64,000 nucleotides of DNA. Source: Neoarius graeffei (taxonomy: Eukaryota; Chordata; Actinopteri; Siluriformes; Ariidae). This document shows, piece by piece, positions 4,563 to 64,000 of this stretch. Made by a program: the position numbers and the translations under genes. How positions within the stretch are numbered: position 1 is the first letter of the stretch; every line of letters starts with the position of its first letter. The notes below the pieces were generated by a model. That model was not told the DNA's origin. It ran no database searches and worked only from the letters and a program-made list of their open reading frames with translations. The stretch spans positions 32,929,714 through 32,993,713 of the forward strand of contig NC_083592.1 in the NCBI RefSeq assembly GCF_027579695.1, given 5' to 3'.

Positions 4563-5106
4563 GGCCATTTTTTTCTTCTGTTTCAAATTTGTATCCCACA
4601 ATGCCTTGTGTGAACAGGGAAAGCACACCACATGATGCCTGACGTATCTTGTTTTGCATCATGGTGAGGCAGGAAAAAATAGAGGAGAACTTAGGGCCAC
4701 GTGGCTCTAAATTCATTAATTGTTTTTAAAAAAAAACTAAAAACTGGAAGTCTGTGATTTGAATTCGGTAGCTTTTGGTCCATTAAACAAAAAAAATAAT
4801 TGTGTGTCAGGGAAAATTCTTTAAAGGTCATAGGCAAAGGTTTTCAATTTATGCACATTTGAAACTTTATATGTTAAAAAACCCTCTGTAATTTTCTTCT
4901 GGTCCCAAGAAGTATTGTTAATAAGTAATAATTAAAATAAGTTAGCGCGGATCACGGTGAATTTCTGCTCAGCGATTTTCGTGACCACTCGGCATGTGAC
5001 ATCATTCAAGGGAAACAAATCGCCTGAGTTGAGTCCACTTCAATTTATTTGCGTTGCCGTTCGGCTTGAGTGCAGACGTGCGTTTGGGAATTTCCAAAGA
5101 AAAACC

Positions 5107-5136
5107 ATGCCTTATTGTTGTGCAGTGAACTGTAAC
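5107..5136 (+). pseudogene. THAP exon, first fragment (K1)
   Basis: ATGCCTTATTGTTGTGC starts a THAP-like N-terminus with the first zinc ligands (MPYCCAVNC). Coding is then broken by an 850-bp insertion and resumes at 5991. Confidence 0.6.
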
Positions 5137-5990
5137 AGAGCCGGTTCAGACCTCCATGGGGCCCTAGGCAAAATTCTGCTAAGGGGCCCTCTTAACTGAA
5201 CCCCAAAATGTTCAACAGTCGCACCTGACACCCAGTGCTTCCACTCATCCCCTCTTTAAACATATTGCACTAGTGTTGCCACCTGTTGGGCTGACTGGCT
5301 GGACTCTGTGCTGCTTGTTAGAAACTTAAGCATCGCACCTGGAAAATATAGATAAGGCTACTATTAATTCAGCTCCATCAAATTGGCTGCACTTGTTTTA
5401 CCTTCAGATACTGTACTTAAAATGTAGGTGATTTAGATTATTATTTAGCCTATTTAGCACCATTGTCATATTTCATGAGTTTTATTTATTCACTAATATA
5501 TCTGCATCTATATTTGCCTGTGGGCTGTCCAAGCAAACAAAATTCAATCTTAGTAAATATTTATCCATTACTTTCCATTTTGTATAAGTGCAGTTGTAAC
5601 TACACTCAGAACGATTGATATAACACTTAAATTGTAGAAGCCAGCAAGACGCACACGGAGACTGTCCGGGGTTCACCCAGGGCTCACCGCCCTGTTATGT
5701 AGGTCAAACACCGACTAGCCCCGTCCCTCCCACTCTCCCACCCGGAGAGGAGAGTTACCTGACTGCTGTTCTCGCTGTTCATTTTCATGCAGTTTCTTTT
5801 TCCTTTTTTCACTCCCCGAGGGATAACTCCGGTTCATCTTGCTAGGTTGATGCACATGCACTGGGAATCTGACGTGCGCGAGCAGCGCGACGGACTGTCA
5901 CGTCGTCACTTTTTTTTTTTTCCCACGGGGCCTCTATGAGCTTGCGGGGCCCTACGCAATGTGCGTAGTGTGCATATTGGGTGAACCTGT
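5137..5990. mobile_element. hAT-like insertion inside the THAP exon
   Basis: It is bounded by a direct repeat TGAACTGTAAC on each side (about 5126-5136 and 5992-6002). Its ends are loosely inverted (CAGAGCCGGTTCAG on the left; complement of GTGAACCTGTACTG on the right). It contains GGGGCCCTAGGCAAA near the left end and GGGGCCCTACGCAA near the right. No transposase ORF was seen. Confidence 0.6.
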
Positions 5991-6321
5991 ACTGAACTGT
6001 AACAATGGGACCGGTTCAGGAAGAAGGTTTTTACCTTTTTCTGAGAGAGAGGAGAAGAGGCGGAGAGAGTGGATTGTGCGTGTGAAGCGAGAGGGCTGGC
6101 AGCCGGGTAAATACGCCACTCTGTGCTCCGATCACTTTTTGAAGAATCTCAATCTGTTGGAGAGTTTAGGTGTCAGTGTCGGACAGAGAAGGCTCAAACC
6201 TGACGCTGTTCCGACAAAATTCGAACACAAAATCAAGCGGTCAAAGAAGAAACGGAGCAGCAACGCTCAAGCAAAAAGGAGAAGATTGGAGGTAAACATT
6301 TTTACCTTTGCTTGCAATTGA
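5991..6321 (+). pseudogene. THAP domain remainder (K1)
   Basis: The reading frame includes the THAP landmarks REW, then LCSDHF (third Cys and His zinc ligands), then LKPDAVPT, followed by a lysine-rich tail. The first Cys pair sits upstream of the insertion at 5107-5136. THAP domains are C2CH zinc-binding DNA-binding modules. Here the domain is interrupted and probably inactive unless the insertion is spliced out. Confidence 0.75.
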
Positions 6322-6548
6322 CAAATCAAGAATCCTGAGGGATCCTGTACAATCATTGTGGAAATGAGACAAAAGGGATATTTCCTCACTTAGAGTTGGC
6401 TATAAATAGTATAATACTTGTATTACTATTAGCAATATACTATATTCACAATATAAACAAATGCACGTTATATTATGTGTGTGCCCGTGTGGTTTAATTA
6501 TTCTTCAAAAGGGCTCTTATTTAGTATTACGACGAAAGTAGGAATTTA

Positions 6549-6776
6549 TCATAACGACCAGGATAAATCGTTTGGGCGCGAGTCTTGTTGAGGTCCGGGG
6601 TCACCGCGATCAGAGTCGGCCGAGTCGCTGTCCGATTCCGAGGCTGCATGGTCAAACCAGTGAGCCACATTCACCAATTGCTTCGCAACGGCCATAGGTT
6701 CATACATATATGGTTTTACCTCTCGATATTTAATTCGGAGAGTTCCTACTTCAAAATCGCTATCGCTTTCACACAT
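6549..6776 (-). CDS. P2RX7-like N-terminal ORF inside K1
   Basis: A 75-codon ORF starts at the ATG at 6776 (MCESDSDFEVG), contains VKPYMYEPMA, then an acidic Ser/Asp stretch (SESDSDSADSD), and ends NDLSWSL. Fish P2RX7-like proteins have an acidic N-terminus with a PYxFEP-type motif, followed by a Trp-Cys-x-Cys motif. This ORF stops right after the Trp. A related ORF in K7 (39132-39579) carries the Cys part. The family assignment is from memory and moderate. It lies on the strand opposite the THAP exon. Confidence 0.5.
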   Translation of the reverse strand: MCESDSDFEVGTLRIKYREVKPYMYEPMAVAKQLVNVAHWFDHAASESDSDSADSDRGDPGPQQDSRPNDLSWSL

Positions 6777-6875
6777 TTTACACAACCTCTCACAACCAAA
6801 GTCCGTACATGTGTGCTCGGTTCGCAAGTAAACACAGTACTGCTCCCGGTCTGTTTGGCTTGAATGACGTCACAA

Positions 6876-7254
6876 CGGGGCGGCACGGTGGTGTAGTGGT
6901 TAGCGCTGCTGCCTCACAGCAAGAAGGTCCGGGTTCGAGCCTCGTGGCCGGCGAGGGCCTTTCTGTGTGGAGTTTGCATGTTCTCCCCGTGTCCGCGTGG
7001 GTTTCCTCCGGGTGCTCCAGTTTCCCCCACAGTCCAAAGACATGCAGGTTAGGTTAACTGGTGACTCTAAATTGAGCGTAGGTGTGAATGTGAGTGTGAA
7101 TGGTTGTCTGTGTCTATGTGTCAGCCCTGTGATGACCTGGTGACTTGTCCAGGGTGTACCCCGCCTTTCGCCCATAGTCAGCTGGGATAGGCTCCAGCTT
7201 GCCTGCGACCCTGTAGAACAGGATAAAGCGGCTAGAGATAATGAGATGAGATGA
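6876..7254 (+). mobile_element. full-length tRNA-derived SINE in K1
   Basis: The complete SINE is flanked by the direct repeat GACGTCACAA at 6866-6875 and 7255-7264. Confidence 0.95.
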
Positions 7255-7472
7255 GACGTCACAATGACTGCCCCCTGGCGGTGAAAGTGCGCATAAGTTA
7301 GACATAAACAAACCTTTGGAACTTGCGCAAACCAATATGTTTTAATCGTTTTATTCGATTTTAGGATGCAAATTAGACACCAGGAAGCTTGAATTCGCTT
7401 TTTGGGTCGTTCTTCTGGAAAATAAAGTTGATATTCTACGTTCCACCCCCGACCCTTGCCTATGACCTTTAA

Positions 7473-33079: not shown

Positions 33080-61217
<28,138 letters not shown>

Positions 61218-62408: not shown

Positions 62409-62527
62409 AACAACATTCAGCTTAAGAGTTATTGATCCGGGAAGTCTGAATCTGTGAATATATTTCCAACTTTACCACAGTTCAACCCAAGCATGAAACA
62501 GAGCTTCATTAAATCATGTGAATGAGC

Positions 62528-63812
62528 CACATTGCCCAGTTTATTTTCCATATTACCCAGTTTATTCTCCCACATTACCCAGAGTATTCTCTACATTACC
62601 CAGTTTATTATCCACATTACCCAGTTTATTCCCACACATTACCCAGAATATTCTCCACATTACCCAGTTTATTCCCCCACATTACCCAGAGTATTCTCCA
62701 CATTACCCAGTTTATTCCTCCACATTACCCAGTTTATTCTCCACATTACCCAGAGTATTCTCCACATTACCCAGTTTATTCTCTACATTACCCAGTTTAT
62801 TATCCACATTACCCAGTTTATTCCCACACATTACCCAGAATATTCTCCACATTACCCAGTTTATTCCCCCACATTACCCAGAGTATTCTCCACATTACCC
62901 AGTTTATTCCTCCACATTACCCAGTTTATTCTCCACATTACCCAGAGTATTCTCCACATTACCCAGTTTATTCTCTACATTACCCAGTTTATTCCCCCAC
63001 ATTACCCAGTTTATTCCCCCACATTACCCAGTTTATTCTCCACATTACCCAGAGTATTCTCCACATTACCCAATTTATTCTCTACATTACCCAGTTTATT
63101 CCCCCACATTACCCAGTTTATTCCCCCACATTACCCAGTTTATTCTCCACATTACCCAGTTTATTCCCCCACATTACCCAGTTTATTCCCCCACATTACC
63201 CAGTTTATTCTCCACATTACCCAGTTTATTCTCCACACATTACCCAGTTTATTCTCTACATTACCCAGTTTATCCCCCACATTACCCAGTTTATTCTCCA
63301 CATTACAGAGTATTCCCCCACATTACCCAGTTTATTCTCCACATTACCCAGTTTATTCCCCCACATTACCCAGTTTATTCTCCACATTACCCAGTTTATT
63401 CTCCACATTGCCCAGTTTATTCTCCACATTACCCAGTTTATTCTCCACATTACCTAGTTTATTCCCCCACATTACCCAGTTTATTCTCCACATTGCCCAG
63501 TTTATTCCCCCACATTACCCAGTTTATTCTCCACATTACCCAGTTTATTCTCCACATTACCCAGTTTATTCCCCCACATTACCCAGTTTATTCCCCCACA
63601 TTACCCAGTTTATTCTCCACATTACCCAGTTTATTCCCCCACATTACCCAGTTTATTCCCCATATTACCCAGTTTATTCCCCATATTACCCAGTTTATTC
63701 CCCCACATTACCCAGTTTATTCCCCATATTACCCAGTTTATTCCCCCACATTACCCAGTTTATTCCCCATATTACCCAGTTTATTCCCCATATTACCCAG
63801 TTTATTCCCCAC
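62528..63812. repeat. minisatellite, ~21-bp unit, about 60 copies
   Basis: Unit CATTACCCAGTTTATTCTCC with 20-22-bp length variants (CTCCA, CCCCCA, CCCA ends). A higher-order 192-bp period is seen between 62581 and about 62990. All three plus frames are open over long stretches only because no unit variant contains a stop. Confidence 0.97.
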
Positions 63813-64000
63813 ACACCTCATTCAAACCATAGATTCAAACATGATTTCACGTAATAACGTGAAAATATATTGTTATAACAATAAACGTTTTTGATACTGA
63901 TTTTTTTTTTTTCTGGTGTGGCAGCGTCCGCAGCCTATGTGACCCAGATAAATAAATCATATATGAATGTGTTATAATTAAATAAAGATTGTGCAGGGGA

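Follow-up and report, generated by a model that had tools for sequence, protein, structure and literature searches.

Kolobok DNA transposons of the Kol0 lineage (Kolobok-1_XT type) have TTAA target sites, 5'-RR/YY-3' ends and KolX, a protein with the P2X7 ballast fold. In the accessible text of Kojima and Bao 2022 (PMC9587614), the KolX of this lineage shows the cytoplasmic ballast of P2X7, and P2X7 itself is traced to the fusion of a P2X4-like gene with KolX. We compared with this system an element at positions 4825-7468 of a 64,000-nucleotide stretch of Neoarius graeffei DNA (hereafter the window, on contig C25). It is, with a probability of about 0.92, a non-autonomous, Kol0-type Kolobok transposon with an internal deletion; its parent most likely carried two converging genes. 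Unlike the described Kol0 elements, it is non-autonomous, with no more than first exons left and without the ballast cysteines; thus, it adds a member to a kind of transposon that is already published.

Two further systems resemble it in part. The Xenopus XKol transposons and T2 miniature inverted-repeat transposable elements (T2-MITEs) share the THAP transposase, the TTAA target, AG termini and abundant non-autonomous derivatives, and the usual Kolobok features are listed there as THAP, DDE and H2CH; the available text names no KolX, Kol0 or P2X7 (PMC6004289). The ballast domain was described across animals by Rump et al. 2020 (PMC7016195), in whose available text P2X7 exon 13 and nanor have a zinc-coordinating cysteine ballast, as found in a KolX of the N. 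graeffei genome. However, P2X7 and nanor are host genes, and the string "transpos" is absent from the main text of that paper. A literature search for KolX with Kolobok returned nothing beyond PMC9587614, and a search for P2X7 with Kolobok returned the same paper and a review in which each term occurs once.

The element, which includes two later insertions, is bounded by the inverted ends AGGTCATAGGC... and ...GCCTATGACCT, with one TTAA on each side (target-site duplications at 4821-4824 and 7469-7472). The inverted-repeat search placed the left terminal repeat (AGGTCATAGGCAAAGG...) at 4825-4841 on the plus strand and the right one at 7452-7468 on the minus strand. Counting the TTAA, the arms are 27 nt long and form an imperfect inverted repeat with 89% complementarity. 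An earlier note on this DNA had proposed a TTAA transposon with terminal inverted repeats, of Kolobok kind; arms and flanks were confirmed in the window and in other copies, and the assignment holds on the TTAA duplication, on the THAP domain and on the termini, which read AG...CT, that is, the 5'-RR/YY-3' form given for Kolobok in the accessible part of PMC9587614. The transposase body, with its DDE core and its C/DxxH and H2CH motifs, was deleted from the window copy. Likewise, the KolX of this copy is reduced to exon 1, whereas the ballast exon is present in other units of the genome. The presumed site of the internal deletion, which would have removed both the transposase body and the ballast exon, lies approximately at 6396-6490, where the copies differ.

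The THAP segment reported earlier on the plus strand was recovered in the Pfam search (PF05485, E 6.5e-13, frame from 5980), although an insertion splits it in the window copy. The exon starts at the ATG at 5107 (MPYCCAVNCN..., 5107-5149) and resumes at 5990-6291, ending by eye at a donor-like AG/GTAAAC. The intervening insertion of about 840 bp (5150-5989, limits approximate) is flanked by a direct repeat, scored as 17 nt at 88% in the repeat search, and is missing from the other copies whose corresponding stretch was aligned; the THAP reading frame is uninterrupted in copy L063 (L-numbers denote fetched loci of the 2.34-Gb genome). By eye, the direct repeat is unusually long and imperfect, about 30 nt with a small length difference. 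In many of the copies L002-L020, a short tandem array built from the THAP exon (element positions 1198-1276) takes the place of part of the THAP domain. The second insertion is a short interspersed element (SINE) at 6877-7254, plus strand, with the 10-bp target-site duplication GACGTCACAA at 6867-6876 and 7255-7264. It lies between the minus-strand open reading frame (ORF) and the right end, is absent there in other copies aligned across the site, and has 23 further pieces within the window; we take it to be of the tRNA type.

The minus-strand ORF, convergent with the THAP exon, runs from stop to stop at 6869-6549. From the ATG at 6776 to a Trp codon finishing at 6558 it encodes 73 acidic residues (6558-6776; MCESDSDFEVG...VKPYMYEP...NDLSW) with a Y-x-[FY]-E-P motif. 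KolX-like genes at the ballast loci of this genome combine an N-terminal part, containing Yx[FY]EP, acidic residues and a Trp, with the CxC...CC ballast behind it. With a hidden Markov model (HMM) built from eight N-terminal KolX segments of the same genome, which we cut at the Trp, the window ORF scored 12.4 bits, reached by 1 of 4996 scored shuffles (5000 made); the family consensus scored 11.2 bits, with two shuffles equally high. The motif [GPN][YN]x[FY]EP turned up in 2 of 20,000 shuffles. The junction agrees with that of locus L031, where KolX exon 1 ends in NNEW at TG/GTAGGT and the next exon, read by eye, starts at CAACAG/GTGC, so that splicing would restore WCTCDHC. The same donor is found in L032 and L054, the latter being the same place as L031. 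In all 19 other family copies compared, the ORF ends at the same Trp, followed by TAG (TG/GTAG) in 18 and by TAA in L018. Because of the HMM score and of the Trp junction matching L031, the window ORF is most likely KolX exon 1, its stop lying in what would be intron sequence.

The earlier note had called this ORF P2RX7-like. The link survives by way of the other KolX genes of the genome, whereas the zinc-binding ballast does not, as only exon 1 is present. The check proposed for it, a model of the P2X7 intracellular domain run against the ORF, gave no match, because the ORF is only KolX exon 1 without ballast.

Copies of the family were sampled from both directions. For the DNA of the minus ORF, 2203 first-look candidates were obtained in the genome, of which 40 were scored; every one matched, those outside the window (39) at 95-96%; for the left end, there were 2156 first-look candidates, and again all 40 scored matched, the 39 others at 92-96%. 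This suggests some 2,000 family copies, the candidate numbers not being verified copy counts. From the ORF search, 20 loci were fetched, including the window's own. Both ends lay within the fetched stretch in 14 of the 19 others, at a distance of 1285 to 2419 bp from each other. TTAA was present at 13 of the 14 left ends (AAAA in L010), at 13 of the 14 right ends (TTTT in L016) and at both in 12. The remaining five loci show one end or none, with TGAA at the right of L011. The mean pairwise identity was 93% among 13 copies (L009 omitted for length). Chance is not the explanation, since other loci show the same ends and the same ORF.

For the end-first sample, the ten best of the 39 non-window left-end matches were fetched. 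All ten have the left TTAA, and seven hold KolX exon sequence, among them a truncated copy (L065), one with a stop (L058) and one with an insertion (L062). This bears on the question of the earlier note whether the ORF always lies between the same ends. An insertion breaks up L059, whose sequence was followed to 2.5 kb only; L063 and L067, followed to 7.5-8 kb, showed neither a right half nor a transposase body nor KolX. The ORF is therefore part of the element, and L063 and L067, which do not have it, look truncated, not differently built. L063 and L067 were accordingly rejected as longer autonomous copies, and so was L006, whose extra length is other inserted sequence.

Related units were found elsewhere in the genome. 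The best case is an 11.1-kb unit on contig C18 (C18:32468548-32479647, loci L057 and L056), with 16 of 16 inverted end positions and TTAA on both sides. Its minus-strand KolX matches PF20478 (P2RX7_C) at E 2.2e-28 and P2X7 chains in PDB at 2.1e-17 (best 9e3m). By eye, its plus-strand exons hold D, D, WDIWH, H/C-rich and LESFHN segments and appear transposase-like, both the name and the motif reading being ours; a Pfam search of three L056 transposase pieces gave no match. At L055, the ends are inverted over 14 of 14 positions, and KolX is convergent with a THAP exon (PF05485, E 1.7e-13). Homology between copies breaks at TTAA in L043/L045, L050/L055 and L049/L052. L056 was also considered as a host P2RX7 receptor gene beside a fossil transposase and rejected: contig C18 yielded no P2X channel exon, and the unit has its own TTAA inverted ends. 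A structure prediction of the L056 KolX without alignment gave a mean predicted local distance difference test score of 42.2 and was not used.

Several results weigh against the reading of the window element as a deleted Kol0 transposon. Concerning the ORF, the Pfam search of the 73 residues gave no significant match (best E 0.12, to an unrelated family) and the PDB search none, both because the ballast, including its cysteines, is missing from the window ORF. The best shuffle exceeded the ORF under the KolX HMM (15.7 vs 12.4 bits). The window copy reads TCG instead of TAG after the Trp and has thus lost the GTAG donor, and in L043, L047, L048, L050 and L052 the frame continues through Trp-Cys with no intron there. 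Concerning the copies, KolX was not seen in the fetched stretch of three of the ten end-first loci (L059, L063, L067), and no longer copy of the window family with transposase body and ballast exon was found. Concerning the related units, strict inverted TTAA ends around the match were found at only 3 of 34 P2RX7_C loci (L049, L051, L055; 0 of 34 in the scrambled-end control), a low number partly because 30 of the stretches are about 3 kb. The ends of the window element were not found in L022-L057, where two matches with three mismatches had neither TTAA nor the family motif. The 11.1-kb unit gave no THAP when searched and is therefore a relative and not the parent.

The genome-wide distribution of the ballast domain bears on where the KolX sequence came from. 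At least 124 exon matches to PF20478 were obtained at E <= 0.001 (150 of 245 candidates scored), a count in which two exons of one gene may appear twice. The P2X channel domain gave 38 exon matches at seven loci (64 of 64 candidates scored). When the positions of both searches were compared, the closest listed ballast match was 1.98 Mb from any P2X exon; thus, among the matches listed, no channel domain joined to a ballast, as in a P2X7 receptor, was found within that distance. With no P2X channel gene close to any listed ballast match, a standard P2RX7 may be absent from the species or may have been missed by the assembly or the search.

The 30 best PF20478 loci were examined with 1.5-kb flanks (stretches of about 3 kb). 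In 16 of them (L022, L029-L035, L039, L040, L042, L043, L046, L048, L050, L051), a piece of transposase or THAP was detected no more than 1.5 kb away (tblastn, E <= 0.001; the weakest is L035 at 8.6e-4, and L031 has THAP only). In all 16, the piece is on the opposite strand, past the 3' end of KolX, that is, tail-to-tail. The transposase queries came from L056 (the same place as L022), L043, L050 and L051, so that these four are self-matches, and several of the 16 are near-copies of one another and hence not independent. The remaining eight loci showed no transposase piece in the 3-kb stretch. Six more, L023-L028, are clustered on chromosome 1 (85-94 Mb) with no transposase piece within 1.5 kb. 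The earlier note's view that the domain family is spread by, or lives in, Kolobok-like elements is therefore supported by the 16 loci and the TTAA units, with the chromosome-1 cluster as a qualification: there, the domain is found where no TTAA unit was shown. The cluster could represent duplicated host genes derived from KolX; when examined as a domesticated gene family, it gave a ratio of amino-acid-changing to silent polymorphism (pN/pS) of 0.90 on few changes, and L026 has stops.

A transposon could instead have captured a piece of host P2RX7, the gene coming first and the element being a passenger carrier. The strong similarity between KolX and the P2X7 ballast agrees with this; similarity alone has no direction. 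The 1.98-Mb distance argues against it, as do the divergent KolX families that adjoin transposase in the same order and the range of the Kol0 lineage, known from vertebrates, annelids, cnidarians and sponges in the accessible part of PMC9587614. We consider capture from the host very unlikely.

It is similarly improbable that selection maintains the ORF because the copies make a useful 73-residue KolX exon-1 peptide, or a THAP peptide. The reading frame is open from the Met in 15 of the 19 other copies (L006 has no Met, L010 is broken, and L013 and L014 have a stop), and the raw pN/pS over 16 copies is 0.49. However, the apparent constraint vanished when the mutation spectrum of the non-coding parts was used as control: 62 amino-acid-changing variants were seen vs 65.4 expected (P 0.20), with 40 changing singletons vs 38.0 expected and 12 changing variants present in at least three copies vs 15.3 (P 0.08). 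The ORF shows no sign of constraint once the mutation spectrum is allowed for. Moreover, 19 of the 29 loci were chosen by ORF similarity, which favours open copies, and three of the seven end-first copies with KolX are damaged, by the stop of L058, the insertion of L062 and the truncation of L065.

PiggyBac elements are not known to carry a THAP domain. They have the TTAA target in common with the window element and differ at the termini (PMC9587614, as far as its text was available), the element ends here reading AG...CT, the Kolobok form; this, the THAP score, the rarity of the motif in shuffles and the exon junction shared with L031 leave next to no probability that an unrelated TTAA element, for instance a piggyBac, happens to contain the ORF and the THAP segment as chance frames.

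The deleted Kol0 element remains the preferred reading, and its origin may be pictured from what is directly observed: the ends, the target sites, THAP, the resemblance and junction of KolX exon 1, the convergent order and the recurrence at many loci. The parent would have had a THAP-DDE transposase gene reading in from one end and KolX, the ballast-domain protein, from the other, with the first exon of each just inside an inverted end. Because the first exons adjoin the inverted ends, a deletion of the middle would leave both ends and the two first exons. We infer that the family's own parent had the ballast exon. Such a derivative would insert at TTAA and, being unable to make transposase, would depend for its movement on transposase provided in trans; its two ORFs would be passive remnants. 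For KolX itself, our guess is a zinc-binding accessory of the transposase.

Other repeats lie in the same window. A second KolX-bearing stretch on the minus strand spans 38940-39802, from TTAA/AGGGG to CCCCT/TTAA; its ends match over about 5 nt only, leaving its limits unconfirmed. Within it, at 39135-39579 on the minus strand, is a KolX that has a frameshift and retains ballast cysteines (...GYQFEP..., then in another frame ...AWCSCGKC...CC), which matches PF20478 at E 0.0035 and 17.7 bits, under the curated cut-off of 23.5. The stretch lies past an exon that matches peptidase M16 weakly (E 6.3e-4, below cut-off), and a further M16 exon is found at 46700-47038 (E 3.3e-12); the stretch is apparently in an intron of the M16-matching gene. 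This gene is presumably the mitochondrial processing peptidase alpha subunit, with its next exon at 38908, where the Pfam search of the piece gave no match. A third TTAA unit at 37048-38436, minus strand, has inverted ends (AGTGCTGATGACAC / AGGGCTGATGACAC) and a THAP exon (PF05485, E 7.7e-14), and an inverted-repeat element is nested in it (arms 37620-37707 and 37743-37830). An open Tc1-type transposase frame of 361 residues occupies 44620-45705 on the minus strand (Pfam HTH_SB, HTH_Tnp_Tc3_2, DDE_3), and a long repeat at 62497-63894 gives units resembling ITQFI or PHYPVYS in several frames.

The suggestion of the earlier note that P2X7 may have gained its C-terminus from such elements is already in print, in the accessible text of PMC9587614. 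The present analysis adds a check at the scale of a genome, the matching exon junction and the convergent arrangement seen across families, prior reports of the last two not having been searched for. The intron of L031 falls inside the Trp codon just before the ballast CxC, which gives the ballast exons a splice acceptor of their own. If a Kol0 element inserted downstream of a P2X4-like gene, it could, through such exons, have supplied terminal ballast exons to P2X7 by splice capture, with KolX elements as standing donors. Given that no P2X gene was seen to have a ballast exon, the ballast domain in N. graeffei may survive only in transposons and their offspring. We put both ideas forward jointly as a speculative and rather doubtful possibility.

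For the family as a whole, the results check independently, on a whole genome, the published claim that a transposon protein gave rise to the ballast domain of P2X7; of the 30 ballast loci examined, about half have Kolobok-like transposase or THAP pieces in a tail-to-tail arrangement. They suggest that many "P2X7-like" ORFs that lack a P2X channel represent KolX.

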